In this document: positions 6,904 through 52,391 of the stretch, in pieces
Layout: each line of letters opens with the position of its first letter
How positions within the stretch are numbered: the first letter of the stretch is position 1
From: Gautieria morchelliformis
Lineage: Eukaryota > Basidiomycota > Agaricomycetes > Gomphales > Gomphaceae
Direction of reading: 5' to 3'
Length of the DNA stretch: 64,000 nt
Assembly (NCBI GenBank): GCA_015179125.1
Contig: WHVA01000090.1
Span: 124,001-188,000 of the forward strand
Notes under the pieces: model-generated
The model's database searches: none
What the model was told of the DNA's origin: nothing
What the model saw: only the letters and a program-made list of their open reading frames with translations
Program-made: the position numbers and the translations under genes

Positions 6904-7391
6904 TGTTGGGTGCATTTATGCTCCTGCACCAAAATCAAGCATAATATATTCAATTTATTGTGTGGTGTTTCAATATTTTCTCATACTGTTCTTGTACCAT
7001 GCATCCACTCCCCTGCTTATTTTCGAAATTTTCTAGCCACTCCCTATCTCTCCATTCCATTCTGTTATTTCTATTTTCACAGGCGGCTGCACCCAGCGGA
7101 GTTTGAAATGACTTCGACGCGTGAGCCCTTGGGCGCTAAAGGGCCGGGTGCAAGTATATGCCTTCTGAGACAGGATTACACTCCTCTCTCAGTGACAATA
7201 AATTCACTGAGAGAGGCGAGTAGTATTCTTCATATTTACATAGCATGTTGACTGAAAATCATGTAGTATATTTGATTCTAGGTATTGTATTAATACATCA
7301 GTGACAATAAATTCACTGAGAGAGTATATTTGATTCTAGCTTTCTAAGAACTCTACCGAACCTTCCTTGCCATAGCCCCTAGTTGCTAACA
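6904..7391 (+). repeat. 5' LTR of copia A (488 bp)
   Basis: Runs from TGTTGGGTGCATT to TTGCTAACA. A TATA-like box TATATG (7155-7160) lies 29 bp upstream of the leader hairpin. The LTR carries the hairpin-intron-exon2-linker-hairpin-exon2 arrangement described separately. Short open frames across it have no coding meaning. Confidence 0.93.
7184..7339 (+). promoter_or_regulatory. Leader cassette in 5' LTR of copia A: unspliced plus spliced copy
   Basis: Exon 1 (7184-7215) is a hairpin with an 11-bp perfect stem, CTCTCTCAGTG / CACTGAGAGAG. It abuts an intron-like segment 7216-7266 (GCGAGT...CATGTAG, 51 bp, with a GTTGACTGA branch-like site). Exon 2 is TATATTTGATTCTAG (7267-7281). After a 16-bp linker (7282-7297) the hairpin recurs (7298-7324) and is joined without gap to the same exon 2 (7325-7339). 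The second copy is what splicing of the first would give. The donor is GC rather than GT, a known minor type. Splicing is inferred from sequence only. Confidence 0.72.
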
Positions 7392-7407
7392 AGGGTTATG
7401 GGCCCCG
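7392..7407 (+). promoter_or_regulatory. Primer-binding site of copia A, initiator tRNA-Met anticodon half
   Basis: Directly after the 5' LTR the sequence AGGGTTATGGGCCC is complementary to the anticodon arm of eukaryotic initiator tRNA-Met (GGGCCCAUAACCC). This is the half-tRNA priming known from Drosophila copia and yeast Ty5. The ATG within it (7398-7400) is also the probable gag start. Confidence 0.7.
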
Positions 7408-10400
7408 CAGACACTTCGCAGAAGCTTTTGGGTGTGGAGAAGCTTGCAACAGATGGAAGTAATTGGCCTCTGTGGCGAGCTACTCTCACAAGTTATTTTG
7501 AGTCCAAAAATCTACTCAGGCATATAGAAGGGAGAGCCATTCGACCTCCTGATCCTCCAGTCATGCCCCCAGGCCATATTCTCACAGAAGCTGAGGAAAC
7601 TCAGATAGAGAAGGCTGAGGAGAAGCTGGAGAAATATCTTGCCAGAGAAGGACAGGCAAAAACCCAAATAATCGTCTCAGTGTCAGAGTCACTAGCTCTG
7701 ATGCTACAGAAGAGACATACAGCAAAAGAAGTCTGGGATGCATTGGTCAATGAGATGACCAAAAAGCCCAAGATGGTCCTCACCAACCTACAGAGACAGC
7801 TTCGCAGTATGAGGTGTCCTGAGGATGGAGACTTGAGAGATCACTTGGACAAGGCCCAAGACCTCTATGCTCGTCTCAATGAGATGGGAGCCAGAATTTC
7901 TGAAGGAGAGTTCACCGACATCATCCTTGCATCACTTCCACCCTCCTATGAGGCAGTTATGAATGCCCTTACCACGTCGCTCGAAGAATGTGGAATGCCC
8001 TTAGTGCCTGATGATATTATCAGAGTACTAAAGGCTCAATATGACAGGAGAAAGACCCTCAATATTTCACAAGAAGAGCAGGCATTTATTGGTTCATCTA
8101 CGAAAGGGCAGAAGGGCCGGAAAGACCCGAAGGTGCTTGCATGCACTAATTGCCACAAGCCTGGACATGCTATAGAAAGTTGCTGGGCTAAAGGAGGTGG
8201 TAAAGAAGGCCAGGGGCCACGTCAGAAGAAGAAAGCGAAAGCCAAAAAGAAGAAGGGCAAAGCCAAGGCGAATGTTGCCGAAGAAGTATCCTCTGAGGAG
8301 GATGAGAGTGGCAGTCCAGCCGCTTTCGCCAACTTCGACTGCTCTAATTTGAGTAGTTTATCTCTGGACACTGTTGTTATTCTCGACACTGGAACGACCG
8401 CACATATGACCCCTCACAAGAATTTATTGAGGGATTACAGTCCATTCTCACAGCCGCGCACAATTCGTGCAGCCAACAAAGGCACTTTTGATGCCTTCGG
8501 TTCAGGCTCACTGTGCTATCTAACAAGGTCGGAGATAAGACTGTGAACATTACATTGAAGGATACGTTCTACGCGCCAAAAATGGCTGTTACCCTCATCT
8601 CGATCGGCCGATGCGATGATGCAGGCTATAACACACAAATAGCTGATCAGAAATGCACAATATCCAATCGTAAAGGCAGGATATTGATGCAAGCACCGAA
8701 GCTGAATGGCTTATATCGATTTGATTTACAACACACAAGTGCCGAAGCGCATGTATGCGCATCAGCCATGGAAATACATCAAAAAATGGGGCACATTTCA
8801 CAAAAGTCCCTACAGCATTTGCTCAACCGTGGCATGATATTAGGCATTGAATTGAGCTCAAAAGGTGACAAGGTTGTTTGCGATGCGTGCATTCAGGCGA
8901 AGATTGCACGTAAATCACTTCCTCAGGAACCCAGAAGCCGATCATCAAAATTCGGTGACAGAATTTATTCTGATGTCTGGGGACCAGCGAGACACTCCAC
9001 AATTGACAAGAAATCCTATTATGTGTCTTTCATCGACGACTACTCAAGAGAATCGGTTATCTATTTGATGGCAAACAAATCGGAAGCATTTTCAAAATAC
9101 AAACTCTACGAGGCCTTGATGCTTCGACAGAGGAATATGCACATCAAAGCACTTGTTTCCGACAGAGGGGGCGAATACACAAGCTCAGAATTTGAACAGC
9201 ATTTGGCCAAGCAAGGCACGAAGCATCGGTTAACCGTACACGACACCCCAGAGTCGAATGGTGTTGCTGAACGTTTAAACCGAACTCTAGTTGAAAGAGC
9301 TCGTGCCATGCTATTGGAATCAAGTCTTCCTAAGACTCTATGGGGGCATGCAATTTTGCACGCCAACTATCTTAGGAATCGGACACACACAAGAGCTTTG
9401 CCAGACAAAACCCCTTTTGAAATGATCCATCATGAGAAACCGAACCTGAAAGACATACACGTGTGGGGAATTGAAGTCTACGTTAAAGTCAAAGAGGGAA
9501 ACAAATTAGCAGCCCGTGCCAAAAGAGCTCGGTGGATAGGAATCTCTGGACAGAGCCATGGTCACTGCATCTACTGGCCTGACTCTCAGAAGGTTTCTGT
9601 CGAGCGGAATGTTATATTTGACTCAGAGATGAAGGGGGGCAAAGCTCCAATCATTTCTATTGAAGAGTCACAGCTACCTACATCCAGAAAAATGGTACAG
9701 GCCATCTCGGCGCCAGCACCTATGCCTAGCCGCTTAGTCAGCGAAGAGGCAAAGATAGAGGAAATTGATGATGATGAACCAGAGGAAGGTCTGAAAGAGC
9801 TGCAACCTAGTCAGACTGTTGATGTCAGACCTAAAGAAGCTGCTCCAACAAGGAGAAGCGAGAGAATCCGTCAGCAGCAGGTGCAGCCGGCCCCAAGTGG
9901 TCCCGTAACAAGATCTCAAACCAAGAGACATGCTGGTGCAGATATCACTACACTAGCTTACGAGGACATTGAGGACCATCAAGACAAATTATTCGAACAA
10001 GATTTATCCTCTGTCACTGACGGCATCAGTGATTATAACCTTGCCATCAGTACACTTTCGACCTCCGATCAAAACAAAGATAATGTGCTGCCGGATTTGA
10101 ATCAGACCGAGCCTAGCAATGCAGATGAAGCCTTAAATGATCCTATATGGAAAGCATCGATGGATAAAGAGTATAAGGTGCTACTCGACAAAGGTGTATG
10201 GGAAGTGGTTAAACCACCTCCTGGGGCAAATATTGTCGGAAATAGATGGGTATTCCTCTGGAAACGCAATCCAGAAGGTGAACCCATTACACCTAGATCG
10301 AGGATGGTCGCCCAAGGCTTTACACAAAGTTTTGGAGTCGACTACAATGAAACTTATGCACCTGTTGCTCGGATGACTTCCTTACGGATTATATGTGCCA

Positions 10401-11647: not shown

Positions 11648-11648
11648 G

Positions 11649-11660
11649 CTTGAGGGGGCG
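11649..11660 (+). promoter_or_regulatory. Polypurine tract of copia A
   Basis: CTTGAGGGGGCG sits immediately before the 3' LTR and after the pol stop codon, the position where plus-strand priming occurs in this family. Confidence 0.7.
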
Positions 11661-12148
11661 TGTTGGGTGCATTTATGCTCCTGCACCAAAATCAAGCATA
11701 ATATATTCAATTTATTGTGTGGTGTTTCAATATTTTCTCATACTGTTCTTGTACCATGCATCCACTCCCCTGCTTATTTTCGAAATTTTCTAGCCACTCC
11801 CTATCTCTCCATTCCATTCTGTTATTTCTATTTTCACAGGCGGCTGCACCCAGCGGAGTTTGAAATGACTTCGACGCGCGAGCCCTTGGGCGCTAAAGGG
11901 CCGGGTGCAAGTATATGCCTTCTGAGACAGGATTACACTCCTCTCTCAGTGACAATAAATTCACTGAGAGAGGCGAGTAGTATTCTTCATATTTACATAG
12001 CATGTTGACTGAAAATCATGTAGTATATTTGATTCTAGGTATTGTATTAATACATCAGTGACAATAAATTCACTGAGAGAGTATATTTGATTCTAGCTTT
12101 CTAAGAACTCTACCGAACCTTCCCTGCCATAGCCCCTAGTTGCTAACA
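11661..12148 (+). repeat. 3' LTR of copia A (488 bp), with the same leader cassette
   Basis: Differs from the 5' LTR at two positions by eye. The cassette is at 11941-12096: hairpin 11941-11972, intron-like 11973-12023, exon 2 12024-12038, linker 12039-12054, second hairpin 12055-12081, exon 2 12082-12096. Confidence 0.93.
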
Positions 12149-12253
12149 GAGGAGGAGTGGTCGGAGGGTGAGGCGAACTCTGACAAAGATGCTAGGGAGT
12201 GATGAGGGGGAACATAGAGGCAGTGGGGTAAGAGAAATAGACAGGTCATGACA

Positions 12254-13279: not shown

Positions 13280-13387
13280 GGCATGGAGCAAAAAAAACGG
13301 ATATATGTGTTGGTAGAGTGGGGATGGCAAAGGGAAGAAAGAGCTCAGATAGTTCCTGCACGTATGGGTGCAGCGGTTGGCCCATAA

Positions 13388-13783
13388 CACTGGAGGCATA
13401 TAAGAATTTCCTGGTCTGAAAAACTGTTCAAAAAACTGTAAAGATATTCCAAATTTTTTTAGTGTTTTTAATGTAAATAATTTTAATATAATTTTGTGTT
13501 TCCGTTAGAATTTGTTGAGCAAGAAAATTAAAAAAGTTTAAAGTTTTTTGCAGGGTTTTTTATGTCTTTTTATAAGTTTCTTTGTGAAAGCACAAAGAAA
13601 CCCATAAAAAACCCTGAAACAAACTTTGAAGTTTTTTACAATTTTCTTGCTCAACAAATTCTAATAAAAACACAAAATTTTATTATAGTTTTTTTTACAT
13701 CAAAAACAATAAAAATATTTGGAATATATTTACAGTTTTTTGAACAGTTTTTCAGACAAGAAAACTTTTATATGCCTGCAGTG
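13388..13783. mobile_element. Foldback MITE copy 1, CACTG ends, 3-bp duplication
   Basis: 396 bp. The ends read CACTGGAGGCATATAAG and, in inverted orientation, CACTGCAGGCATATAAA, and the inverted similarity continues almost to the centre near 13585, so the whole element could form one long hairpin. A 3-bp duplication TAA flanks it (13385-13387, 13784-13786). CACTA/CACTG ends with 3-bp duplications fit the CMC/EnSpm superfamily. There is no coding capacity. It has landed inside the primer-binding site of copia D. Confidence 0.8.
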
Positions 13784-13812
13784 TAACCTATTGGGATCTG
13801 CACTATAGTAAG

Positions 13813-13867
13813 CTACATGTGAGTAAGTAATATGCCAAGAACAATGAGCGTAACTATGCGTTCTTAC
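13813..13867 (-). promoter_or_regulatory. Intron-like segment in copia D 5' LTR
   Basis: Begins GTAAGAACG, ends CATGTAG, with CTTAC as a branch-site candidate about 13 bases before the end. It is flanked by CTGAG and CTTACTATAG. The other LTR of the same element has CTGAG joined directly to CTTACTATAG, so presence/absence boundaries coincide exactly with GT and AG. Confidence 0.75.
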
Positions 13868-13961
13868 CTCAGACGTTCGGGGTGCATGAACGACTGAGGA
13901 AAGAAGCAGAGAAGCAGAATCGAAACTGATGACGTGGAGTAGATGTGGGTCCATATAGGTA

Positions 13962-18330: not shown

Positions 18331-18592
18331 TGTTGGAACTACGATGTCATACGGGGTCCACACGGACCCACATATGTGTCGGCTTATCATTTTCTAACCC
18401 CGCCGTCCCTCCTTTCCTCAGTCGTTCATGTCCATCTGAACGCCTGAGGTAAGAACGCTCTACTCCACGTACCCAGTTTACTTTACTTACTTTCTACTAC
18501 CCGCACTGTAGCTAATCAGAGTGCAGGTAACAATAAATCAGTCGTTCATGCCCATCTGAACGCCTGAGCTAATCAGAGTGCAGATTCAAACA
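18331..18592 (+). repeat. Solo LTR related to copia D
   Basis: 262 bp, TGTTGGAACTACG ... GATTCAAACA, with 5-bp duplication CAAAG (18326-18330, 18593-18597). It shares with the D LTR the GATGTCATAC start region, the CTTTCCTCAGTCGTTCATG hairpin arm and a GTGCAGATT end. It contains both an intron-bearing and an intron-less copy of the leader in tandem. Confidence 0.82.
18417..18583 (+). promoter_or_regulatory. Leader cassette in the 18.3-kb solo LTR: unspliced plus spliced copy
   Basis: Exon 1 18417-18448 is a hairpin (CTCAGTCGTTC / GAACGCCTGAG, one mismatch). The intron-like segment 18449-18511 reads GTAAGAACGC...GCACTGTAG (63 bp). Exon 2 CTAATCAGAGTGCAG is at 18512-18526. After a short linker GTAACAATAAA the hairpin returns (18538-18568) joined precisely to the same exon 2 (18569-18583). 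This is the clearest case because exon 2 and hairpin copies are nearly identical and the junction is exact. Confidence 0.75.
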
Positions 18593-22289: not shown

Positions 22290-22825
22290 TGTTGGGTGCA
22301 TATGTGCACCAGGCTCCAAACCTAACATTTCTGTTGTTCTTTCTTTCGATTTTGATCTGAAACTATGCTGACATTCATTCTATGCCTGTCACAATTTTCT
22401 TTGATTTTTTCGAAGCTGTATCACTACTCCTTTTCATGTTCTGTCCAACCAACCCTTTGTGGGTGGTTGTGGACAAGTTTCCTTTTTGAGCTGTGGCTTT
22501 TCACTAACGTGTTACGTTCTATGGGCGCTTAATTATCCGAAGGGCGCACCATTGCCTCAAGGGCGCTTAAAGTGCCGGAACTTCGTATATGCGAGTGAAA
22601 CAAGCCCATGCGCAGCCTCCCCTCCTCAGTGTTGACTATCACTGAGGAGGTGAGTTTAATAGTGTACTTTCATAGTATGAAACTGAAAAAACATGTAGAA
22701 GATTAAATAGGTAGCATTCCTTTATATTACTCAGTGTTGACTATCACTGAGGAGAACATTAAATAGTTTACTAATCTCCTGCAAGTCCCATCGTTCATAT
22801 CTGGCATATAACTTCCTACTTGCCC
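22290..22825 (+). repeat. Solo LTR of a third copia family
   Basis: Starts TGTTGGGTGCATATGTGC, like the A/C LTR, and ends near TACTTGCCC, with AAACC on both sides (22285-22289, 22826-22830). It shares the GGGCGCTTAA... block, a TATAT box (22586) and the leader architecture with A/C, but most of the sequence differs, so it is a separate family. The right end does not show the usual CA, so its exact position may be off by one or two bases. Confidence 0.75.
22622..22766 (+). promoter_or_regulatory. Leader cassette in the 22.3-kb solo LTR: unspliced plus spliced copy
   Basis: Hairpin exon 1 is 22622-22649 (CTCCTCAGTG / CACTGAGGAG, 10-bp perfect stem). The intron-like segment is 22650-22698 (GTGAGTTT...ACATGTAG, 49 bp). 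Exon 2 is AAGATTAAATAG (22699-22710), linker 22711-22729, second hairpin 22730-22754 joined directly to AACATTAAATAG (22755-22766). The two exon-2 copies differ at one base. Confidence 0.72.
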
Positions 22826-23293
22826 AAACCGAGTTTCTACAAAACCCTCCTGTATGCACACTTATTCCTCAGTCTGAATATCGATGTCAAGATTGTATTT
22901 TAGGCGTTAACATCATGTATTAGTGAACACAGTGAATGCCCAAATGGCTTGTGCAACGAAGCATGTAGTTCAGCAAATAAGATGCACCAATAAATGTTTA
23001 GAAGGTAAGAGGGCTACCCAAACAGAGCTTTCCCTATCTACAGTCATAGTGAAATAACCGGTGATACTTGACTATGTAATGTGCAAGGTCTCATGGAAAG
23101 GGTGTCTAGTAGTAACAATCCTTTCGCTGGTGAAGGTGCTCCTTCGGAGCCTTTCGCCAAAGATAGACGTATGATAATTGAACTGCAGAATATACATGCG
23201 AATGTAAACTACTTATACAGAATGCTCATATGATATCAGCAAATAGGAAAGAGGCCGTTGTGAGTCAGGGTTGGATGGGGGGTGCATGTCATA

Positions 23294-30509: not shown

Positions 30510-30810
30510 TATTGGGATACGACACCGTTGGTAAGCGTGGAACGCAGCAGGGCCGTCCCCGGCATCAACGTAGGGAGGATACTCGTAGCTTCGGTCCTGC
30601 ATGACCGAAGCTAGTATATAGTTCAGACGTACGAGCAGTCGCACCTCAGTGAAGCTATCGTTCACTGAGGTACGCATTGTCTCTATAGTTACACACGCAT
30701 CGCTAATCGTAATGTATAGCCCATCGTACTTAGGTAGCTATACAACTTACAGTGAAGCTATCGTTCACTGAGCCCATCGTACTTAGTCTACTGCGCATAA
30801 CCCATGAACA
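30510..30810 (+). repeat. 5' LTR of copia B (301 bp)
   Basis: TATTGGGATACGACACC ... ATGAACA. It has TATATA (30615-30620) 30 bp upstream of the leader hairpin and the double leader copy at 30645-30786. Confidence 0.88.
30645..30786 (+). promoter_or_regulatory. Leader cassette in 5' LTR of copia B: unspliced plus spliced copy
   Basis: Hairpin exon 1 is 30645-30669 (CTCAGTGAA / TTCACTGAG, 9-bp stem). The intron-like segment is 30670-30719 (GTACGCATTG...AATGTATAG, 50 bp, branch-like GCTAATC). Exon 2 is CCCATCGTACTTAG (30720-30733), linker GTAGCTATACAACTTA (30734-30749), second hairpin 30750-30772 joined directly to an identical exon 2 (30773-30786). Confidence 0.75.
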
Positions 30811-30824
30811 GGTTATGGGCCCCG
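30811..30824 (+). promoter_or_regulatory. Primer-binding site of copia B, initiator tRNA-Met anticodon half
   Basis: GGTTATGGGCCCCG follows the LTR directly. It is the same word as in A and C and contains the gag ATG (30815-30817). Confidence 0.68.
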
Positions 30825-33800
30825 CAGAGCCCACCACGTCTTCCTCTACTTCGAAGTCCTTCGTCGTACCCAAGCTTGCCCGAGATGGCACGAACTGGGT
30901 TACCTGGAAAAGTCAAACGTTAGCCACACTAGCGTCGACTCGTGGTGCAAAACGACACCTGGAGGGAACCGCCCACATCCCCCCCCCAATCCCCACTTAC
31001 CCTACTGGCCACTCGCTAATGGACGAACAGGAGGAAGAGCTAGACGATCTAGAGAAGCGTTGGGACGACTACAACCAACGCAAGGCCACAATCATGGCCC
31101 AGATCTTCACCACGGTCCCGGACAGCGTACTCATCGAAGTACGGAACCTGACGACGGCAAAGGAGGTGTGGGAAGCGGTATGTGCCAAACATGAAAGTAA
31201 AGCACTCACAGTGAAGATCGACATGAGACGACGGATGTACGAGATGAAATGCGAGGACGAGTCGAACGTCCGTATGCACCTGGAAGGTCTCATGAGAATG
31301 CAAGAGCAGCTATCTGGAATGAATGCAGCACTCACCAACGACGACCTAGTCACCGTCATCCTCGGCTCGCTCCCCAAATCATATCGCTCACTCATCAATG
31401 CTATCACAATGTCTGCCGCACACGCCAAGGCAAAGCTAGAACCGGATCAAGTAGTTAGTACGCTCATTGACGAGTTCGAGAGACTCACCATCGAGGAGCG
31501 CCAGCTCAAGGCGAGTGAGAACGCCCTCGCGGCAGCTAAAGGTCGTGGGAAGCCCCAAGCGCGCGCAAGCACCTCCAGCACCACAAAGATCGACGTGGAA
31601 TGCTGGAAGTGCGGCAAGAAGGGTCATTTGAAGGCGGACTGCCATTCAAAAGCCAAGAAGAAGGAAGAGAAGAAGGGAGGTGGGTCAGCAAATGCAGCAG
31701 CTGAAAGCGAGGATTTCGCGTTCACAACTACCTTTGCTGGGACCACACTCGCGCTGGAAACGAGTCCGTTGACTGGTCAGGAAATCAACGTCTACGACTC
31801 GGGTGCATCAGGTCACATGTCGCCGAACAAGCATCGCTTTGTTACCTTCAAAGCAATCACGCCGCGCACGATCAACGCCGCGGATAAGACGGTCTTCCAA
31901 GCTACAGGAATAGGAAATATGAGGATTGGCATCCCCAATGGCAAGACAACGACGCACGTCACCTTGAAAGACGTGTTATACTGCCCTGACCTCGCGTTCA
32001 CCCTAATCTCACTGACGCGCTGCGATGCAGCCGGTTACTCGGTCCTCTTGCAGGACCGAAAATGTCTAATACGAGACGCGAAGGGGATGCTGCTTGGGCA
32101 GGTCCCGCTCTCAAACAGGCTCTACAAAGTAGAGCATAAGGCTACAGCAGCGGTCGCGAACATCACGACCAAGTCACTTACGGTGGACGAGCTACACCGC
32201 CACATGGGGCACATCTCCCCACAGGCCGCCCGGAAACTTGTGCAGGATGGCACGGTGACCGGCCTCGACGTAGACGCGTCGAGCCAGCCCAGCTTCTGCA
32301 CGACGTGTGCACAAGCAAAGCCGACTCGCAAGCCCGTCCCGCAGAAGCGGGAAGGACCGTGAGCTGCGAGCTTTGGCGAGAAGGTACACTCAGACGTATG
32401 GGGGCCCGCGAGCCCCCAAAGCTACGACGGGAAAGATTACTTCATCAGCTTTACCGATGATCACAGCAGATGGACTTACCTAGTGCCCATGGCAAAGAAA
32501 AGCAACGCCTTCGACTGCTACAAGCAGTACGAGGTGTGGGTGGAGACCCAGCACAGCACGAAGCTAAAGCGCCTGCAAACGGATCGAGGGGGAGAATACT
32601 TGTCCGAGGAGTTCACCGCTCACCTTCAATCTAAAGGGACAGTCCGCAGTTTAACCGTGCACGACACACCTGAGGAAAACAGCGTGTCAGAAAGACTGAA
32701 CTGCATGCTGCTGGAACACGCACGAGCGATGCACCTAGCAGCAGACCTACCGAAGTTCCTCTGGATGGAATCGGTACAACATGCCATATGGTTGAAGAAT
32801 CGAACGTCGACCCGCGCACTGGACGGAAAAACGCCATATGAGGTCATGCACCATGAAAAGCCCGATCTGACGGACTTACCTGAGTGGGGCGCGAGGGTCT
32901 ACACTCTCAGAGAAGACCGCGGCAAACTAGAGCCCAAAGTGGACGAGTGCAGATGGGTCAGATATAGCGACAAAAAGGCCATAGGATCTATTGGCCTGGG
33001 AAACGTCGCGTGAGCATCGAAAGAAATGTTACCTTCGACAACTCTGTCCTGGTCACCCCGAGCGACACACAGACTGAGGGGGAGTCAACCACCCAGGGCA
33101 GTCAAAGTGCCGCTCGACACGACCAGCCGCCCGTACCGCCCCCAGCTACTCCGCGCGTCGATCCGCTCGAGGGCCTTGAGGTGCCAGATCCCCCAGAAGA
33201 CCAGCCACTGGGCAGGGGACACCGGACGTGGAAACCATCCGCGTACATAAGGGACATTGCCGACGGTGCAGGCAGCAGCACCGGTCGCGCGAACACCCCT
33301 GTGTACCCCAAGGGACTGCCCATCCCCACAGGGAATGTGGCCCTAGCGGTCCTGGAGGAGCTGGGAGAGGACATGGAAACGGAGGGGGAGATGCGTCGCC
33401 CTCTCGAGCTTTTGATGTCCGCGGCTGCGCACGTGGGAATCAACCCCACTAGTCTGGACGACGTGCGCTCCCGTGAGGATTGGCCGCTCTGGGACACGTC
33501 TATAAGACAGGAGCTGGATCAACATGAGAGAGTGAAGACGTGGGACCTAGTGGAACCCCCACCTGGCACAAACATTGTAGGAAGCAAGTTGGTCTTCCGG
33601 TACAAGCACGACGCCAGCGGTGAGATTGTGAACAGCAAGACAAGGCTTGTTGTGCAAGGGTTCTCGCAAGCGGAAGGCATCGATTACAGCGAAACTTTCT
33701 CACCCACCGCTAAGCTATCTGCAATCCGCGTCATCGCCGCCATCGCCACCAGAAATGACTGGGAGCTAGAGCAAATGGACATAGACGGCGCATATCTCAA

Positions 33801-35005: not shown

Positions 35006-35254
35006 TATTGGGATATGACACCGTTGGTAAGCGTGGAACGCAGCAGGGCCGTGCCCAGCATCAACGTAGGGAGGATACTCTTAGCTTTGGTCCTGCATGA
35101 CCGAAGCTAGTATATAGTTCAGACGTACGAGCAGTCACACCTCAGTGAAGCTATCGTTCACTGAGGTACGCATTGTCTCTCATAGTTACACACGCATCGC
35201 TAATCATAATGTATAGCCCATCGTACTTAGTCTACTGCGCATAACCCATCAACA
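35006..35254 (+). repeat. 3' LTR of copia B (249 bp), single intron-containing leader
   Basis: Hairpin 35141-35165, intron-like 35166-35216 (GTACGC...GTATAG), exon 2 35217-35230, then directly TCTACTGCGC. The linker and second hairpin-exon2 copy of the 5' LTR are absent. The deleted block can be read as GTAGCT...CTTAG or as loss between the 14-bp direct repeats CCCATCGTACTTAG. Confidence 0.88.
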
Positions 35255-35398
35255 TATCCTTAGTGGATGGGATAACCAGTTGGAACCAAGTGTATCTTGG
35301 GGGATCAGTTCTCTCTAGTTTACATGTATACATTCCTAGACTACACAGCCAGACGTTAAGGATATACTCGGTATAAGCTGCTACTGGAGATGCCCCAT

Positions 35399-35776
35399 CA
35401 CTGCAGGCATATAAAAGTTTTCTTGTCTGAAAAACTGTTTAAAAAACTGTAAAGATTTTCCAAATATTTTTAGTGTTTTTTATGTAAAAAAAACTATAAT
35501 AAAATTTTGTGTTTTTTTTTTTGTTCAGCAAGAAAGTTTTTTTCAGGGTTTTTTTATGGGTTTCTTTGTGTTGTCACAAAGAAACTTACAAAAAGACATA
35601 AAAAACCCTGCAAAAAACTTTAAACTTTTTTACAAATTTCTTGCTCAACAAATTCTAATAAAAACAGAAAGTTTTGTCTAAGTTTTTTTTACATTAAAAA
35701 CACTAAAAAATTTTGAATATCTTTACAGTTTTTTGAACAGTTTTTCAGACCAGAAAATCTTTATATGCCTCCAGTG
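35399..35776. mobile_element. Foldback MITE copy 2, CACTG ends
   Basis: 378 bp; ends CACTGCAGGCATATAAAAG and (inverted) CACTGGAGGCATATAAAG; 3-bp duplication CAT (35396-35398, 35777-35779). Inverted similarity runs to a centre near 35575. Same family as the copy at 13388-13783. Confidence 0.8.
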
Positions 35777-35779
35777 CAT

Positions 35780-36458
35780 GTGAAACCAAAGTTGCCTTCT
35801 GCTTGAGCTTGGTCGAAGCCCAGTGTCAAAGCCGAGAGAATCAGATAAGCTCAGTGCAGGCTGACGCTTAGACCGAGCATTGTTGACTCATGACATGCCA
35901 CGTCCAATCTCTGCCTGTGGCTTCTGCTGCAGACTATCATAGGCTCAGCTCGGGGCGCGGTCAATGCCTGATGCCTGATGTCCAGGCCGAAAGATAGGTC
36001 CAGTGCAGGCTGCAGCTCAGACCCAGTGTCTCTTGACACACACTGTGCCATGCTCACCTGGAAAGCAGTATAGTTCACTCGCATGGAAAGCACACTTAGT
36101 GATGCACAGACCGGGCTGGGCTCAGAAAGCCCGGGCTTGGGCTTGGCTTTAGCAGGCTCAGACTCAGTGAAGCCTCAAGCCCAGCCCATTAGTCAGGCTC
36201 GGCCTGGGTCGGGCTCGGCCTGGGCTCAAGCCTTGGCTTCAGCTATGAAAAAAAAAAACAAATATGAAAATAAATTATGATTACGCCATAGCATCAATAG
36301 TAAATGTTCTCTGATTCATCATCGCTCTTATCGATGTTGGCAAGTGCTTGTACTGGATAGATGACAGCATGTTATTGTCTCAACCACAATATCAATCGGA
36401 TCCACATACCCGCGAAATTTACATGCATGTCAGTTGTGAACTTTTCCATCCTTGCCAG
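35780..36458. other. Region with GC-rich repeat, no gene
   Basis: 36106-36246 is another stretch of GGGCTTGGGC / GGCTCGGCCTGGG words related to the hAT-like ends, followed by an A10 run. Other parts show repeated GCTCAGAC/CCAGTGCAGGCTG words. Nothing coding is supported. Confidence 0.45.
36106..36246. repeat. GC-rich hAT-like end, decayed copy
   Basis: About 140 bp of GGGCT-GGGC words in both orientations. No clean terminus or target duplication was found. Confidence 0.45.
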
Positions 36459-38287: not shown

Positions 38288-38292
38288 CATTG

Positions 38293-38693: not shown

Positions 38694-38735
38694 TTTACAC
38701 CCTCCCCCTCTATAGACAACTATAGGGGTCAACTA

Positions 38736-43685: not shown

Positions 43686-44275
43686 ATACATAATGGAAAT
43701 ACAAATAATGTCTCGTGGGAATGCATTTTTGTCTCCGACAACCAGCCTGATGTCACGACGCATCAGGGGGCACTGTCTCAACGCGGAAGCATTTTGGTCC
43801 CGCGTCGACCACATTTTTGTCTCACCCGAATGACATTTCTGTCTCACCTTTAAGCTACACTCCATATACTTTACCGAAAAATACGAGTGGGGGCTTGTTT
43901 TGTTACCCGAATTGAGCAGTATATGCCAAAATTATCAGTCTGTTGACCCGGGCACGGTGGCACTCAAGTTCGGCCTACCTTGAGATGTCTCTTGGATGTC
44001 CTAAGCGCAAGGTGAGCACGACGTTGTGAAATTTCATGGTAGATTATCACGCATATGCCATTCTAGGAGAATTGTGGGACAAACATTGAACAGCCAGCTT
44101 GGTTACGCACTTTGTATTACTCGGTGGACAATAGCAGACAACGTCGCGTTGCAGTTTGTCTAACGCACTTTCTATGTCTCGTTATGCTGTGTGATTTCTC
44201 AGCTTCTCAGCGTTCTTTTATGCCCCTCAGCTATATAACAGACCATGATGGACTAGTTCTCCACAGTAAATCCCT

Positions 44276-47200
44276 ATGCCACCTGGCAAACGACGCCCTG
44301 GTCGTCCGCTTAAGAGGTTCCATAAACGTGGACGGCAAGCTCAGAATGACACCCTTCGCATATTCGATACTTCTAGTAGCCCCACTGCGGAGAGTCCCCA
44401 AACGGCTCCCATTGCCTCTCCAAACGACTCTGAAATTATCATCACTCCAAGACGGCGTGCGTATCTTGATATGATCTACGAAACTCACAGTGTCCCTCCC
44501 CCTGTTCTCAATACAAGCCGATCCACTAAACCTCTTCTCTTGGACTCCATCAAACACCTGGGGCCAGTATGGAAGGATATGGGTCATGTACTTACCACAA
44601 AGCTGCCGGATTGGTTTGACGCTCAGGTAAGTCATCTTCCTGAGAGTTTATACATGCGCACACTAATGAAACGATGTTGTCATCATAGTTCAATGACTAT
44701 AATCCCTACAGGACAATCACTTCTGTGTCTGTTGACAAGTCCTGGTTTGGACATCCCAACGACACGCCCGTTGATGTCAGGGCACAGCCCTTCATCCTGT
44801 TCTGGAATGAAACATCGGGACTTTCACTCCAGGGATGTGAGGCAGCAATATTACAAAGGAGAGTAGTTACACGGTTTGAATACAAGTGCCGAGGGGCCTG
44901 TGCCTTGGCATCGGACACGTCTGACTCTGCGACCAAGTCCGACCAAGAAGATAAAGGTTCTAACCATCTCACGCAACGTAAAATGCGTTGGAAACAATGC
45001 CCAGGTCAAGTTACACTTGTGGTACTGTCTCGGTTTTATTTAACTATTGTAGCGCTAATGATCCAGTCATACAGCTTGAGGCTTATGCTGATGACTTGAC
45101 TCGTGTCACTGTCTGGCAATCAGGTACTCACGAAGATGCAAATCCAACAGAGTTACTTTGGTCTCGGCGTTTGCGTAACCTGGTATCTGAGCGGCTGAGG
45201 CTGGTAGGTGTCAAGGCTACAATGGTTATGCGTGGTATGTACCTTACCTACTGCAAATACCTTCAGGAGAAACCCACATAAAATTGTGTTACAGAGCTAG
45301 TTAACCAGTATCGGACCCCGTTGCTCACTTCCAGACCAACGAATGCAGCAACTGACATAGGTGACAACTTCCCAACATTCCGCAGGCCAACTGCCAAACA
45401 GATCAGGCAGTTGTTACCTGCCGTCGTTCGCCGAGCACATCTCGACCAGGATCCGTTCACTGCTGTCACAATCCTGAAGAATCGCAATCCGCACAAGATC
45501 TACAAGTGCGTCCCTACGCATATATCCATCACAAACCGTTATTCCTGACATATTTTTGTTAGCAACTAGGGGCTATGGCAGGGAAGGTTCGGTAGAGTTC
45601 TTAGAAAGCTAGAATCAAATATACTCTCTCAGTGAATTTATTGTCACTGATGTATTAATACAATACCTAGAATCAAATATACTACATGATTTTCAGTCAA
45701 CATGCTATGTAAATATGAAGAATACTACTCGCCTCTCTCAGTGAATTTATTGTCACTGAGAGAGGAGTGTAATCCTGTCTCAGAAGGCATATACTTGCAC
45801 CCGGCCCTTTAGCGCCCAAGGGCTCGCGCGTCGAAGTCATTTCAAACTCCGCTGGGTGCAGCCGCCTGTGAAAGTAGAAATAACAGAATGAAATGGAGAG
45901 ATAGAGAGTGACTGGAAAATTTCGAAAATAAGCAGAGAAATGGATGCATGGTACAAGAACAGTATGAGAAAATATTGAAACACCACACAATAAATTGAAT
46001 ATATTATGCTTGATTTTGGTGCAGGAGCATAAATGCACCCAACACGCCCCCTCAAGCTTAATATATTCCGATTTTCTCGTTGAGGATTCTCACTCTAGGA
46101 CTAGGAAGTCCTTTAGTGAGAAGATCGGCTAGCATGTGTTCCGTTGGCAGGTACACAAGCTTAATTTCTTCATCTTCGACTATATCTCTGATGAAATATA
46201 ATCTAATGTCGAAATGCTTGGTCCTCGTGTGTTGTTGAGTGCCATAGACGATGGCAATGGCTGATTGATTGTCTGAATAAAGTTTGATGGGACAATTCAG
46301 CGGTTGGAATACTTCAGAAATAAAGTGGCGCATCCATAAGGCTTCTTTACTCGCATGAGTCAGGGCAACGAATTCGGCTTCAGTTGATGATAGGGCTACA
46401 ATGGATTGTTTTTGACAACTCCATGATACTGTCCCTCCATCAATCTGAAAAATATAAGCCGAGTATGAGTGCCTGTGCTCTTGAGAAGCCCAATCCGCAT
46501 CTGAATACCCAATGAGGCCGTCTCGATTCTTCCCAAGTGTCAATTTGTAGTCCATCGTGCCTTTTAGATATTTAAAGACACGTTTGACTGCATGCCAATG
46601 TGTTGGACCTGGGTTTTCGAGGAATTGAGAAAGTAATGACACTGCGAACGCAATGTCCGGTCGAGTGGCTACTGCTGCCCACATCAATGATCCTATCGCT
46701 TGTCTGTATGGAATTCTTGACATCTTCTGTTTGTCTTCATCTGTAGAAGGGCATTGGTCTCTGGATAATTTAACGGCTGGGTCGAGAGGCGTTGAAAATG
46801 TTTTGGCATCATCCAGATTGAATTTTTTGATGATTTTTTGGATGTATGCAGCTTGTGATATTGCAATCGATTTGTTATTCCAATCTCTTTCGATTTTGAG
46901 GTTCAAAAGCCAGTGAATCTCGCCTAGGTCTTTCATACTAAAAACCTGGGCAAGGTCATGCTTTACCTCATCGAGGATTGGTTGACTCTCAGCTGTGATA
47001 GTGAGGTCGTCTACCGCCGTTGCAATAATCGCATGCCCTCTCGGTCCACGTCTGCAAAATACAGCTCCATCCGAAGCTGATTTAGTGAATCCTAACTTGA
47101 GAAATTCACCACTCAGACGTTTGTACCATTCCCTTCCAGACTGTTTGAGGCCGTAAAGTGCTTTCTTCAGCAGGAGGACATCATCTTTGTCTCCGGTCTC

Positions 47201-50200
47201 ATATCCATATGGCTGTCTCATGTAAATAGGTTCTGGCAGTGTAGCATTCAAATACGCACTGTCCACATCCATTTGGTGAATAGGCCAGTTGTTCCTGGCA
47301 GCAATGGCACATATAATCCGTAAGGAAGTCATCCGAGCAACAGGTGCATAGGTTTCATTGTAGTCGACTCCAAAGCTTTGTGTAAAGCCTTGGGCGACCA
47401 TCCTCGATCTAGGTGTAATGGGTTCACCTTCTGGATTGCGTTTCCAGAGGAATACCCATCTATTTCCGACAATATTTGCCCCAGGAGGTGGTTTAACCAC
47501 TTCCCATACACCTTTGTCGAGTAGCACCTTATACTCTTTATCCATCGATGCTTTCCACATAGGATCATTTAAGGCTTCATCTGCATTGCTAGGCTCGGTC
47601 TGATTCAAATCCGGCAGCACATTATCTTTGTTTTGATCAGAGGTCGAAAATGTACTGATGGCAAGGTTATAATCACTGATGCCGTCAGTGACAGAGGATA
47701 AATCTTGTTCGAATAATTTGTCTTGATGGTCCTCAATGTCCTCGTAAGCTAGTGTAGTGATATCTGCACCAGCATGTCTCTTGGTTTGAGATCTTGTTAC
47801 GGGACCACTTGGGGCCGGCTGCACCTGCTGCTGACGGATCCTCTCGCTTCTCCTTGTTGGAGCAGCTTCTTTAGGTCTGACATCAACAGTCTGACTGGGT
47901 TGCAGTTCTTTCAGACGTTCCTCTGGTTCATCATCATCAATTTCCTCGATCTTTGCCTCCTCGCTGACTAAGCGACTATGCATAGGTGCTGGCGCCGAGA
48001 TGGCCTGTATCATTTTTCTGGACGTAGGTAGCTGTGACTCTTCAATAGAAATGATTGGAGCTTTGCCCCCCTTCATCTCTGAGTCAAATATAACATTCCG
48101 CTCGACAGAAACCTTCTGAGAGTCAGGCCAGTAGATGCAGTGACCATGGCTCTGTCCAGAGATTCCTATCCATCGAGCTCTTTTGGCACGGGCTGCTAGT
48201 TTGTTTCCCTCTTTGACTTTGACGTAGACTTCAATTCCCCACACGTGTATGTCCTTCAGGTTCGGTTTCTCGTGATGGATCATTTCAAAAGGGGTTTTGT
48301 CTGGCAAAGCTCTTGTGTGTGTCCGATTCCTAAGATAGTTGGCGTGCAAAATTGCATGCCCCCATAGAGTCTTAGGAAGACTTGATTCCAATAGCATGGC
48401 ACGAGCTCTTTCAACTAGAGTTCGGTTTAAACGTTCAGCAACACCATTCGACTCTGGGGTGTCGTGTACGGTTAACCGATGCTTCGTGCCTTGCTTGGCT
48501 AAATGCTGTTCAAATTCCGAGCTTGTGTATTCGCCCCCTCTGTCGGAAACAAGTGCTTTGATGTGCACATTCCTCTGTCGAAGCATCAAGGCCTCGTAGA
48601 GTTTGTATTTTGAAAATGCTTCCGATTTGTTTGCCATCAAATAGATAACCGATTCCCTTGAGTAGTCGTCGATGAAAGACACATAATAGAATTTCTTGTC
48701 AATTGTAGAGTGTCTCGCTGGTCCCCAGACATCAGAATAAATTCTGTCACCGAATTTTAATGATCGGCTTCTGGGTTCCTGAGGAAGTGATTTACGTGCA
48801 ATCTTCGCCTGAATGCACGCATCACAAACAACCTTGTCACCTTTTGAGCTCAATTCAATGCCTAATATCATGCCACGGTTGAGCAAATGCTGTAGGGACT
48901 TTTGTGAAATGTGCCCCATTTTCTGATGTATCTCCATGGCTGATGCGCATACATGCGCTTCGGCACTTGTGTGTTGTAAATCAAATCGATATAAGCCATT
49001 CAGCTTCGGTGCTTGCATCAATATCCTGCCTTTACGATTGGATATTGTGCATTTCTGATCAGCTATTTGTGTGTTATAGCCTGCATCATCGCACCGGCCG
49101 ATCGAGATGAGGGTAACAGCCATTTTTGGCGCGTAGAACGTATCCTTCAATGTAATGTTCACAGTCTTATCTCCAACCTTGTTAGATAGCACGAGTGAGC
49201 CTGAACCGAAGGCATCAAAAGTGCCTTTGTTGGCTGCACGAATTGTGCGCGGCTGTGAGAATGGACTGTAATCCCTCAATAAATTCTTGTGAGGGGTCAT
49301 ATGTGCGGTCGTTCCAGTGTCGAGAATAACAACAGTGTCCAGAGATAAACTACTCAAATTAGAGCAGTCGAAGTTGGCGAAAGCGGCTGGACTGCCACTC
49401 TCATCCTCCTCAGAGGACACTTCTTCGGCAACATTCGCCTTGGCTTTGCCCTTCTTCTTTTTGGCTTTCGCTTTCTTCTTCTGACGTGGCCCCTGGCCTT
49501 CTTTACCACCTCCTTTAGCCCAGCAACTCTCTATAGCATGTCCAGGCTTGTGGCAATTAGTGCATGTAGACACCTTCGGGTCTTTCTGGCCCTTCTGCCC
49601 TTTCGTAGATGAACCAATAAATGCCTGCTCTTCTTGTGAAATATTGAGAGTCTTTCTCCTGTCATATTGAGCCTTTAGTACTCTGATAATATCATCAGGC
49701 ACTAAGGGCATTCCACATTCTTCGAGCGACGTGGTAAGGGCATTCATAACTGCCTCATAGGAGGGTGGAAGTGATGCAAGGATGATGTCGGTGAACTCTC
49801 CTTCAGAAATTCTGGCTCCCATCTCATTGAGACGAGCATAGAGGTCTTGGGCCTTGTCCAAGTGATCTCTCAAGTCTCCATCCTCAGGACACCTCATACT
49901 GCGAAGCTGTCTCTGTAGGTTGGTGAGGACCATCTTGGGCTTTTTGGTCATCTCATTGACCAATGCATCCCAGACTTCTTTTGCTGTATGTCTCTTCTGT
50001 AGCATCAGAGCTAGTGACTCTGACACTGAGACGATTATTTGGGTTTTTGCCTGTCCTTCTCTGGCAAGATACTTCTCCAGCTTCTCCTCAGCCTTCTCAA
50101 TCTGAGTTTCCTCAGCTTCTGTGAGAATATGGCCTGGGGGCATGACTGGAGGATCAGGAGGTCGAATGGCTCTCCCTTCTATATGCCTGAGTAGATTTTT

Positions 50201-52391
50201 GGACTCAAAATAACTTGTGAGAGTAGCTCGCCACAGAGGCCAATTACTTCCATCTGTTGCAAGCTTCTCCACACCCAAAAGCTTCTGCGAAGTGTCTGCG
50301 GGGCCCATAACCCTTGTTAGCAACTAGGGGCTATGGCAGGGAAGGTTCGGTAGAGTTCTTAGAAAGCTAGAATCAAATATACTCTCTCAGTGAATTTATT
50401 GTCACTGATGTATTAATACAATACCTAGAATCAAATATACTACATGATTTTCAGTCAACATGCTATGTAAATATGAAGAATACTACTCGCCTCTCTCAGT
50501 GAATTTATTGTCACTGAGAGAGGAGTGTAATCCTGTCTCAGAAGGCATATACTTGCACCCGGCCCTTTAGCGCCCAAGGGCTCGCGCGTCGAAGTCATTT
50601 CAAACTCCGCTGGGTGCAGCCGCCTGTGAAAGTAGAAATAACAGAATGAAATGGAGAGATAGAGAGTGACTGGAAAATTTCGAAAATAAGCAGAGAAATG
50701 GATGCATGGTACAAGAACAGTATGAGAAAATATTGAAACACCACACAATAAATTGAATATATTATGCTTGATTTTGGTGCAGGAGCATAAATGCACCCAA
50801 CAATTTTTACCAAATTTGTAGCTTTATCCCCCATAATTCAAGAAAACCTGATAGTCAGTCCCGATTCACATGCGCTATGGCAGATGGTTTCACTCTGGAG
50901 AATTTAATTCTCCACGGCACACGTGATGTGTTGGCCGCAGATACCAGCTGGCGCAATAAAAATGAGAACCGTGCTGCCGTTACATTCCTGATTGCGGTCA
51001 ATCAGCATCAACACTTTGTGCCAGGTCAGTCATTGTGAGTTGCTGTGGTGTATTGGATGACCAAATCAGAGACATTCTCTCACCGGCAAAGGCAGCTGCA
51101 CATGACTATCTGTGCACAGTCATTGATACTGTTGCAGAGATTCTCTTGCAACCATCAAGAACATCGTTCAACAGACTAGTCGACCAATGGAATGAACGTC
51201 TAGCCAAGCGCACACAATCCACACTTGATGCTGGCCTGACTTTTGACTTTTTTAGAGAACATTCCCAATACCTAGACAATGTGGATGCATACATCATTGG
51301 ATCCTCTTGTGCTAGCAGACTCGCGTGTGTGTTACGAGAAACGCATGGTATTCAGGGCCACCTGGAACAGACAAACCTGGTGTTTGGCCCTGGTTGCACA
51401 ATTCTGGCTTACTATCTGCTAGGTAATCGACTGGGGCTCGGAGCTGAAGAAACGTACGTGCTGGCAGACCAGGGCCACCTGTATCGACCCTCCTCGGATC
51501 ATGAATTGGTATGGGAAGCTATGCGAGGGCGCGTTTTGCTGAGTGTCAAAGGACACGATGATTTTGAACGGACGCACAGGATTATGGACGCGACGATCAA
51601 GCTACCGGGCGTTGAGGTGTCCTTTGCTTCTGATCCTAAGGTCATCACTTTATTTTCTGCTTTATTTGACACTTATCACATAAGAGCAGGCTCATATTGA
51701 AGAAACCCCTTCACATGATGTGGATAAACGTGATGCGGACGCTGGCCACTCTAAAGAACTTGTCCCACAAGAAGCTGTAACCGTAATTCCCGAAGCCAGT
51801 CAACTGGAAAGTCCTGATGTACTACAAGGTCACGAAGGCGAAGCTATGGCGAGTGAAATGGAGGTGCAGCACTCACTCCCCCAACCGCAATTCCACCTTC
51901 CACGTGGTGATCAACAGCCGTTCGTGCCATTGCCATATTCTGCTGGATCCCAGGCTCATCCTTCTTCGGACACCATGTCGCTGTCTGTGGTGCAACAATC
52001 ATCCCCTAGGGTGTACATGACCCTCGATTCTGCAGACGTTTCCAATGCCCGAGAATCCGAAAGTGTAGAAAGGGCTCGAGTGGAACACGCAGCGACCAAC
52101 AAAACACAAGAGACTAGGTTATCTTTAGCTATAGATGCAGCTCCGGAGGTTGGGTCTGCTCTAGCTACAGATCAACTACCCTTGATTCGACTTGTGAAGA
52201 CCGCCGAGGGATGGAAAGCATCTGCCGGTGCTCTTCCACATGGTAAACTGCGAGCACAGGATACCTCTGGTGACGGCTTGGCAACAAATCACACGGGCAC
52301 TCAGAAGACCTCCAACCCTAAGCGAAAGCAAAGCCCTGAAGGAGTCCTGGCACCGGCAGATGTAGGGCGGCGTCTGCGGCCCCGAAAATAG
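44276..52391 (+). CDS. MULE transposase-related gene, copia C in an intron, catalytic half missing
   Basis: Start ATG at 44276 (MPPGKRRPGRPLKRFHKRG: AT-hook-like basic opening). After an intron (44627-44688) comes a zinc-binding, FLYWCH-like region: WFGHPNDTPVDVRAQPFILF, CRGACAL, WKQCPG, ADDLTRVTVWQSGTHE. Then KQIRQLLPAVVRR, DPFTAVTILKNRNPHKIY; a 5.3-kb intron (45506-50821) holds copia C; then PHNSRKPDSQS and the first catalytic region ADTSWRNKNENRAAVTFL. Where homologues continue with the second D and E of the DDE triad I find none: from 51035 the protein is helical (LDDQIRDILSPAKAAAHDY) and ends in a long disordered tail with a basic end (RRLRPRK), stop at about 52391. Either an internal deletion or a chimeric gene. 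Confidence 0.65.
45557..46044 (-). repeat. 3' LTR of copia C (488 bp)
   Basis: Starts after the polypurine tract with TGTTGGGTGC and ends TTGCTAACA on the minus strand. The double leader cassette lies at 45609-45764 (intron-like part 45682-45732). Confidence 0.93.
46058..50308 (-). CDS. Gag-pol polyprotein of copia C, intact (1416 aa)
   Basis: Start at the ATG inside the primer site (50306-50308), stop TAA 46058-46060. Gag with LATDGSNWPLWRATL and zinc knuckle CTNCHKPGHAIESC (about residue 260); K-rich linker; protease ILDTGTTAHM (about 330); integrase zinc finger H-H-C-C (about 450-500), core D/D/E with SDVWGP, FIDDYSR, SDRGGEYTS, ESNGVAERLNRTL (about 530-640); reverse transcriptase with VFLWKRNPEG, FTQSFGVDYNETYAPVARM, QMDVDSAYLNATLPEPIYM, YGLKQSGREWYK, AVDDLTITAE (about 950-1130; the usual YVDD box reads TAVDD); RNase H with GYSDADWASQEHRHSYSAYI, LSSTEAEFVALTHASKEAL, SDNQSAIAI (about 1270-1370). 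Length is normal for Ty1/copia. No frameshift separates gag from pol, so the Gag to Pol ratio must be set otherwise. Confidence 0.96.
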   Translation of the reverse strand: MGPADTSQKLLGVEKLATDGSNWPLWRATLTSYFESKNLLRHIEGRAIRPPDPPVMPPGHILTEAEETQIEKAEEKLEKYLAREGQAKTQIIVSVSESLALMLQKRHTAKEVWDALVNEMTKKPKMVLTNLQRQLRSMRCPEDGDLRDHLDKAQDLYARLNEMGARISEGEFTDIILASLPPSYEAVMNALTTSLEECGMPLVPDDIIRVLKAQYDRRKTLNISQEEQAFIGSSTKGQKGQKDPKVSTCTNCHKPGHAIESCWAKGGGKEGQGPRQKKKAKAKKKKGKAKANVAEEVSSEEDESGSPAAFANFDCSNLSSLSLDTVVILDTGTTAHMTPHKNLLRDYSPFSQPRTIRAANKGTFDAFGSGSLVLSNKVGDKTVNITLKDTFYAPKMAVTLISIGRCDDAGYNTQIADQKCTISNRKGRILMQAPKLNGLYRFDLQHTSAEAHVCASAMEIHQKMGHISQKSLQHLLNRGMILGIELSSKGDKVVCDACIQAKIARKSLPQEPRSRSLKFGDRIYSDVWGPARHSTIDKKFYYVSFIDDYSRESVIYLMANKSEAFSKYKLYEALMLRQRNVHIKALVSDRGGEYTSSEFEQHLAKQGTKHRLTVHDTPESNGVAERLNRTLVERARAMLLESSLPKTLWGHAILHANYLRNRTHTRALPDKTPFEMIHHEKPNLKDIHVWGIEVYVKVKEGNKLAARAKRARWIGISGQSHGHCIYWPDSQKVSVERNVIFDSEMKGGKAPIISIEESQLPTSRKMIQAISAPAPMHSRLVSEEAKIEEIDDDEPEERLKELQPSQTVDVRPKEAAPTRRSERIRQQQVQPAPSGPVTRSQTKRHAGADITTLAYEDIEDHQDKLFEQDLSSVTDGISDYNLAISTFSTSDQNKDNVLPDLNQTEPSNADEALNDPMWKASMDKEYKVLLDKGVWEVVKPPPGANIVGNRWVFLWKRNPEGEPITPRSRMVAQGFTQSFGVDYNETYAPVARMTSLRIICAIAARNNWPIHQMDVDSAYLNATLPEPIYMRQPYGYETGDKDDVLLLKKALYGLKQSGREWYKRLSGEFLKLGFTKSASDGAVFCRRGPRGHAIIATAVDDLTITAESQPILDEVKHDLAQVFSMKDLGEIHWLLNLKIERDWNNKSIAISQAAYIQKIIKKFNLDDAKTFSTPLDPAVKLSRDQCPSTDEDKQKMSRIPYRQAIGSLMWAAVATRPDIAFAVSLLSQFLENPGPTHWHAVKRVFKYLKGTMDYKLTLGKNRDGLIGYSDADWASQEHRHSYSAYIFQIDGGTVSWSCQKQSIVALSSTEAEFVALTHASKEALWMRHFISEVFQPLNCPIKLYSDNQSAIAIVYGTQQHTRTKHFDIRLYFIRDIVEDEEIKLVYLPTEHMLADLLTKGLPSPRVRILNEKIGIY
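50295..50314 (-). promoter_or_regulatory. Primer-binding site of copia C
   Basis: Minus-strand AGGGTTATGGGCCCCGCAG follows the 5' LTR. It is complementary to the anticodon arm of initiator tRNA-Met and overlaps the gag ATG. Confidence 0.7.
50315..50802 (-). repeat. 5' LTR of copia C (488 bp)
   Basis: Appears identical to the 3' LTR. The leader cassette runs 50522 down to 50367: hairpin 50522-50491, GC-AG intron-like 50490-50440, exon 2 50439-50425, linker 50424-50409, second hairpin 50408-50382, exon 2 50381-50367. Confidence 0.93.
50367..50522 (-). promoter_or_regulatory. Leader cassette in 5' LTR of copia C: unspliced plus spliced copy
   Basis: Base for base as in copia A. Because this element is intact and recent, the arrangement is compatible with mobility. 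Confidence 0.72.

Follow-up and report, generated by a model that had tools for sequence, protein, structure and literature searches.

Intron-like leader segments and a very likely spliced second copy in the long terminal repeats of copia elements from Gautieria morchelliformis

Foamy viruses are retroviruses that possess env, encode reverse transcriptase ahead of integrase, and carry unspliced genomic RNA. Their major splice donor is located inside the R region, and hence in both long terminal repeats (LTRs) (PMC3694450). Probing by selective 2'-hydroxyl acylation analysed by primer extension (SHAPE) revealed that foamy virus RNA beginning at +1 folds unlike RNA with 13 nt upstream, and the fold of the 3' LTR presumably blocks U1 at the donor (PMC3694450). 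The element Ty5 uses the anticodon loop of the initiator tRNA-Met for priming, and Drosophila copia a half-tRNA (PMC5371799). In the barley copia element BARE, splicing yields a subgenomic RNA for Gag, separate from the pool of RNA that is packaged (PMC3735527), and the plant LTR elements Ogre and EVADE possess functional introns that serve subgenomic RNAs by alternative splicing (PMC12786077). The present analysis concerns copia elements in a 64,000-nucleotide stretch of the basidiomycete Gautieria morchelliformis (hereafter the window; contig WHVA01000090.1, positions 124,001 to 188,000), which belongs to an assembly of 122 Mb in 1113 contigs (GCA_015179125.1). The LTRs of these elements carry a leader cassette with a second copy, and the best overall explanation, which we regard as reasonably probable, is that an intron within the LTR carries the 5' end of the element's own RNA in an already spliced form.

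The cassette follows the order hairpin (H1), intron-like segment (intron 1), E2, linker, second hairpin (H2), E2', and U5, in four families of the window and in seven further sequence groups found genome-wide. In element A, the 5' LTR (6904–7391, forward strand; delimited by self-comparison, TG..CA ends, and the target duplication GAGGA) contains H1 at 7183–7215, with the A at 7191 as the putative RNA start, placed by eye from the boundary of the second copy, followed by intron 1 at 7216–7266 (GCGAGT..CATGTAG, with a TTGAC branch-like site) and the parser-defined E2 at 7267–7281. A candidate intron 2 (7282–7339, GTA..TAG) then comprises the linker (7282–7299), H2 (7300–7324), and E2' (7325–7339). 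The same cassette recurs in the 3' LTR (11661–12148, forward strand), with H1 at 11940–11972, intron 1 at 11973–12023, E2 at 12024–12038, and candidate intron 2 at 12039–12096. Matches to the hairpin pattern CTCAGTGN{6,16}CACTGAG number 8 in the window, whereas shuffled sequence gives 0.01 on average, and the second copy is without the outermost 2–8 bases of the first hairpin. The cassette with its second copy is real, repeated, and maintained.

The nature of the segment missing from the second copy was assessed in 137 leaders of the genome, some of them being the two LTRs of one element, using a parser that seeks two copies differing by one gap and is blind to splice sites. It accepted 116 of the leaders, and in 108 of these GT/GC..AG was among the equally good registers, against a background of 980 in 38,649 (2.5%) taken over every place of the same sequences. 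In these 108 copies the segment absent from copy 2 can thus be read with the GT/GC..AG edges expected of a spliceosomal intron, at a rate well beyond chance. The preliminary description had held that exactly this segment, of 49–63 bp, is lacking; an allowed register is indeed present in the 108 copies, but, with AG at the end of exon and intron alike, the join is ambiguous by 1–5 registers, and the length range holds for the window and extends up to 66 bp elsewhere in the genome. The eight leaders that depart from GT/GC..AG include four with 1-nt length differences in E2 or E2' (L049, L057, L062, and L107), two with substitutions beside the join (L103 and L165), one in which the acceptor AG has become AT (L179), and L167. 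The plan was found in eleven sequence groups (A, B, L011, L075, L019, L025, L102, L090, L134, 22.3 kb, and 18.3 kb) that differ in loops, introns, and exons; the groups share ancestry, with L011 and L075 being close, and therefore do not represent eleven independent draws. When the printed parser rows were read by eye for motif types familiar from introns, intron 1 displayed GTRNGT-like donors and CTNAC- or TTGAC-like branch sites.

A second intron-like segment, which the preliminary description had missed, follows from the exon boundaries. Of the 116 copies, 109 have an E2 ending in AG and 107 a linker with GT at its start, both features being present in all 11 group representatives, so that linker, H2, and E2' together form a GT..AG segment of 51–59 bp and a candidate second intron. 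Excision of both segments would yield hairpin-E2-U5, identical to the reading of the second copy plus U5. Among the 24 family A copies without intron 1, 23 were read (18 by script, two with a one-base U5 change by eye, plus L065, L094, and L101), and all were hairpin-E2-U5; the state lacking intron 1 but retaining the linker was seen in 0 of these 23, as expected if the 3' RNA copy stays unspliced. The linker alone was also considered as a self-sufficient intron and was dropped for being too short in the main families, L061 having a GT..ACAG linker of 43 bases. In the variant family of this leader and L099, two copies of a 22-base block are separated by one GT..AG linker (43 bases, with a TACTAAT motif), or a single block stands without the linker; by eye, an upstream 13-base U3 arm in L061 pairs with the end of the exon, immediately ahead of GTGAG and with no intron 1 there.

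Linkage between the two copies was examined in 62 A-family elements taken by pattern. E2 equals E2' in 56 of the 62, over six haplotypes, against a shuffled mean of 20.1 and a maximum of 35. The strongest result comes from single-site linkage: at the two matching pairs of variable sites r2 is 0.87 and 0.88, compared with 0.00–0.01 for non-matching pairs and 0.00 for the two sites inside E2, and sites in the intervening linker reach at most 0.15 with E2 and 0.19 with E2'. Using haplotypes seen at least three times, the association is 0.89 between E2 and E2' (54 elements), 0.09 between E2 and the linker (49), and 0.11 between the linker and E2' (47), with shuffled values of about 0.1. With E2 and E2' changing in step and the intervening linker tied to neither, the linkage statistics support repeated rewriting of copy 2 beyond mere inheritance. 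Four intron-1 sites with r2 of at least 0.38 to E2 gave E2/E2' values of 1.00/0.88, 0.66/0.58, 0.56/0.41, and 0.38/0.27; being slightly less tied to E2' than to E2, they suggest that E2 is the source and E2' the copy. The hybrids L048 and L103 combine E2 and E2' of different common types. A CpG distinguishes E2 from E2' in L011, L073, L075, and L186 (TTCG against TTTG or TTCA), suggesting decay of the methylation type once the elements had inserted.

The boundary of the second copy also bears on the RNA start. By eye, copy 2 starts at AGT, with the A of TCAGT (the boundary patterns of the group comparison assume AGT), and what directly precedes it differs in both length and sequence among members of several groups, as in the 22.3-kb family, where AGTG is preceded by ACT, ACTC, ACTG, or ACC. 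CTC is also common to the copies in some groups, hence the start is fixed only within about 3 bases. In A, L011, and L019, reading by eye shows a TATA-like box whose first T stands 32–36 bases upstream of this A, and the A of TCAGT within the 5' arm of the hairpin is the probable RNA start. The hairpin had earlier been placed at the transcript start as a whole; judging by the copy-2 boundary, the start is better placed inside its 5' arm, which would leave the full hairpin to the 3' RNA copy.

Beyond the inner stem, an upstream outer arm pairs with the exon end and the 5' splice site (GTACCTC with GAG/GTAC, GCACCTC with GAG/GTGC, GTCTCACCTC with GAG/GTGAGAC, and CTCTTTC with GAAAGAG). The first hairpin was located in 120 of the 137 leaders. 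At positions 4–10 of the outer arm, 18 hand-picked representatives have 82 Watson-Crick pairs of 126 against 54.1 in shuffles (reached in 0 of 20,000), and 12 representatives have 51 of 84 against 36.4 (1 of 20,000); the best slid registers, at 57/126 and 41/84, respectively, fall below the true one. Folding predictions gave the donor 9-mer an unpaired probability of 0.39 when RNA begins at the start A and 0.15 when 40 nt of U3 (26 in one case) are added, with lower accessibility in 17 of 18 and a shuffled-U3 control of 0.28. The arm bases beyond position 3 lie upstream of the start A, so the full hairpin would exist only in the 3' RNA copy, where the outer arm could hide the 5' splice site in most groups. 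The likeness to the foamy virus donor in R that is hidden when U3 is present is favoured here by covariation and predicted folding, with L025 and L102 pairing poorly past the first base of the intron.

Taken together, the GT/GC..AG joins in 11 groups, the joint variation of E2 with E2', and the start of copy 2 strongly support an intron in the leader and copying-back of the spliced form, and it is very likely, judging from these sequence patterns, that a spliced leader has been copied into the LTR. The earlier proposal of such a copy-back at strand transfer stands in this respect, and needed the second intron-like segment to be complete. The use suggested earlier for the pair, to keep translated and packaged RNA apart through splicing, gained no support from the features analysed here.

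The core of the primer binding site (PBS), GGTTATGGGCCCCGCA, has 1232 matches genome-wide with at most one mismatch against 0 for the reversed control, and the gag start codon lies inside it, facing the CAU anticodon of tRNA-Met, at 7394–7409 (A, forward strand), 30811–30826 (B), and 50297–50312 (C). In A, the first 15 bases of the site are complementary to the anticodon arm of tRNA-Met; the exact complement of the 15-base GGTTATGGGCCCCGC was found in the anticodon arm of two tRNA-Met (CAT) genes of the genome by ARAGORN, these being the two fetched out of six candidates chosen by an initiator-like motif, with initiator identity assigned by the motif only. The arrangement resembles half-tRNA priming of the copia/Ty5 type, the likeness being the 15-base match to the anticodon arm in two genes. 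To our knowledge, neither Ty5 nor Drosophila copia has leader introns or a tandem R. A scan of viral contigs for the PBS returned 0 matches, and a hairpin scan returned 14 loci, 0 of 14 with a second copy, which were taken as chance.

We consider it somewhat better than an even chance that the genomic RNA is spliced in each cycle without loss of the introns, the pre-spliced repeat inside an intron acting as a docking site for spliced strong-stop cDNA and the U3 arm masking the donor only in the 3' RNA copy. Transcription would start at the A of TC[A]GT in the 5' arm of the hairpin, and the 5' leader would then lose intron 1 (GT/GC..AG) and intron 2 (GT..AG), leaving hairpin-E2-U5 ahead of the PBS and the gag ATG. 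The 3' RNA copy would carry the U3 arm, which on covariation and folding pairs with the 5' splice site in most groups, and would thereby remain unspliced and retain H1, intron 1, E2, linker, H2, and E2'. The spliced strong-stop cDNA, hairpin-E2-U5, may then move to H2-E2' as its sole contiguous match and be extended into the linker. Both introns would be restored and H2-E2' rewritten from H1 and E2, the rewriting being the step backed by the linkage statistics; with the introns restored each cycle, the element could splice its genomic RNA and yet inherit them. The model does not close unless the segment of linker, H2, and E2' is excised, and the second intron-like segment is therefore required.

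The states of the LTR were scored by parser and by eye in the 5' LTRs adjoining 99 of the first 100 listed PBS matches. The tandem was found in 81 of these elements, hairpin-intron-E2-U5 (the intron-only state) in 7, hairpin-E2-U5 (the spliced-only state) in 6, one of which (L034) may be truncated upstream, the variant family in 2, and no cassette in 3. Exact patterns of family A gave 863 first hairpins followed by the intron and 24 followed directly by E2, 889 intron-E2-linker and 49 intron-E2-U5 junctions, and 5 second hairpins with an intron after them. L050 and L187–L191 contain two or three hairpin-intron-E2-linker units in series, repeating every 109 bases; either unequal exchange or the landing of unspliced cDNA on H2 would be expected to produce them. 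L015, L051, and L092 have the same PBS and no hairpin cassette visible by eye, and form a natural comparison group.

Several observations weigh against the docking model and should be given fair weight. Just hairpin-E2-U5 or hairpin-intron-E2-U5 stands beside the PBS in 13 of the 99 sampled elements. The contracted and expanded states (49 intron-E2-U5, 24 hairpin-E2, and a few expansions) and asymmetric LTR pairs such as that of B do not discriminate, because recombination between direct repeats also yields them, and they were dropped as proof. The rewriting statistic is drawn from two variable sites in one family, and the predicted linkage of E2' to U5 is absent among the A-family elements (r2 at most 0.27; normalised mutual information 0.11 against 0.17 shuffled). 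As for the donor mask, the outer-arm representatives are related, so the shuffles overstate significance; allowing G-U pairs, a slide of -3 gives 54/84 against 53/84 in register for the 12 representatives, the corresponding counts by Watson-Crick pairs alone being 41 and 51; the L025 group pairs only at positions 1–4 plus isolated ones, covering little of the donor, and L102 is similar; and position 5 is unpaired in the 18.3-kb rows. Candidate intron 2, read by eye in printed rows, has a weaker donor than intron 1 (GTA, with no GT at positions 5–6) and variable sequence in place of a single conserved branch site, a TAAT-like motif in the linker having been dropped as its branch site for seeming too near the donor.

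Each of the competing explanations must be weighed against the same features. The tandem could have been made once or a few times by splicing and copy-back, with gene conversion or unequal exchange keeping the copies alike and the second copy idle in the cycle; this is unlikely. Exchange between the copies probably occurs, given the contractions and expansions at repeat boundaries and the differing LTRs within B, but E2 and E2' match at two sites although the linker between them is scrambled, conversion would need to affect E2 and the hairpin independently and yet not spread the intron, and all 11 group representatives share the plan, with a linker that starts in GT. An origin without any splicing, in which replication slippage or template switching produced the tandem and the GT/GC..AG look is a coincidence, gains something from the ambiguity of the join; set against the 108 of 116 allowed registers over many different intron and exon sequences, the branch-like motifs, and the donor-pairing arm of most groups, it is highly improbable.

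The introns might instead form a regulatory device that aids Gag expression by ridding the leader of upstream ATGs or of a 5' poly(A) signal, with unspliced RNA being reverse transcribed through ordinary R homology and the tandem hairpin taking part in dimerisation or packaging. Upstream ATGs are present in 9 of 11 representative unspliced leaders (the 11 include two from one family, that of A in the window and L009), in 3 of 11 after removal of intron 1, and in 2 of 11 after removal of both segments, and in foamy viruses the donor in R suppresses the 5' poly(A) site (PMC3694450). Unspliced RNA landing on H1, however, would neither hold E2' equal to E2 nor start copy 2 at the probable RNA start, and a purely regulatory role is accordingly judged quite unlikely.

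In the rest of the window, the plan first reported for four families was borne out in A, C, the 5' LTR of B, and both solo LTRs, the 3' LTR of B being without the tandem. A and C, which lie on opposite strands, are members of a single copia family (98.6% identity across 5.2 kb by self-comparison), with LTR pair identities of 99.4% for A and 100% (a 489-base match) for C. On the reverse strand, the 5' LTR of C (50315–50802) contains H1 at 50491–50523, intron 1 at 50440–50490, E2 at 50425–50439, and candidate intron 2 at 50367–50424, and self-comparison places the same cassette in the 3' LTR at 45557–46044. B and the two solo LTRs belong to other multicopy families. The forward-strand B element, whose LTRs start TATTGG, has the tandem in its 5' LTR (30510–30810), with H1 at 30645–30669, intron 1 at 30670–30719 (GT..TAG), E2 at 30720–30733, and candidate intron 2 at 30734–30786, including H2 and E2' at 30751–30786; its 3' LTR (35006–35254) has the hairpin at 35141–35165, intron 1 at 35166–35216, and E2 and U5 from 35217. 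The tandem is thus present in one LTR of B and absent from the other, yet one target duplication flanks both; L038 with G000:C149:418182 is a second mixed-state pair, inferred from strand and spacing only.

The solo LTR of the 22.3-kb family (22290–22841, forward strand) contains H1 at 22622–22649, intron 1 at 22650–22698, E2 at 22699–22710, and candidate intron 2 at 22711–22766, with H2 and E2' at 22733–22766. That of the 18.3-kb family (18331–18592, forward strand) contains H1 at 18416–18448, intron 1 at 18449–18511, E2 at 18512–18526, and candidate intron 2 at 18527–18583, with H2 and E2' at 18540–18583 and then 9 bases of U5. In DNA searches with these two families, 40 places each, of 198 and 112 candidates, respectively, were scored, and some were paired about 5 kb apart. 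By eye, 5-bp target duplications flank A (GAGGA), C (AAAAT), B (TATCC), and the two solo LTRs (AAACC and CAAAG). Two related repeats of about 400 bp, at 13387–13784 and 35391–35780, are each nearly self-complementary (77–83% to their own reverse complement by self-comparison), and Rfam gave zero matches within the window.

The elements belong with Ty1/copia, as they encode Gag and have integrase ahead of reverse transcriptase, paired LTRs with TG..CA ends, and short target duplications; the Pfam domain order Retrotran_gag_2, rve, RVT_2 lies in two open reading frames in A and in one in C. Among the 120 relatives listed of the 2208 matched by the B polymerase, nine carried an organism name, eight being fungi (including Bondarzewia, Hericium, Gymnopilus, and Dentipellis) and one a lupin. 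The copia domain order, together with the finding of no env domain by Pfam in the 10 window proteins scanned, places the elements outside the foamy viruses. We know of no equivalent of the cassette. A literature search on LTR introns, spliced leaders, and strand transfer returned none in the text accessible to it, which is weak evidence of novelty as coverage was short on subscription journals and preprints. In the available text of the respective reports, no intron wholly within an LTR and no pre-spliced second R are described for foamy viruses (PMC3694450), BARE shares with the present elements its copia kinship and a spliced transcript class and differs in that an LTR intron accompanied by a spliced copy is not described (PMC3735527), and no intron inside an LTR is described for Ogre or EVADE (PMC12786077).

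Reverse transcription removes introns, and it is for this reason that they are used to prove an RNA intermediate. If the proposed cycle is true, an element that splices its RNA and yet transmits its introns would break this rule of intron loss by means of a simple sequence trick, with R edited out at one end of the RNA and kept at the other. It would then constitute a second solution, beside that of the foamy viruses, to the problem of making two identical LTRs act differently.

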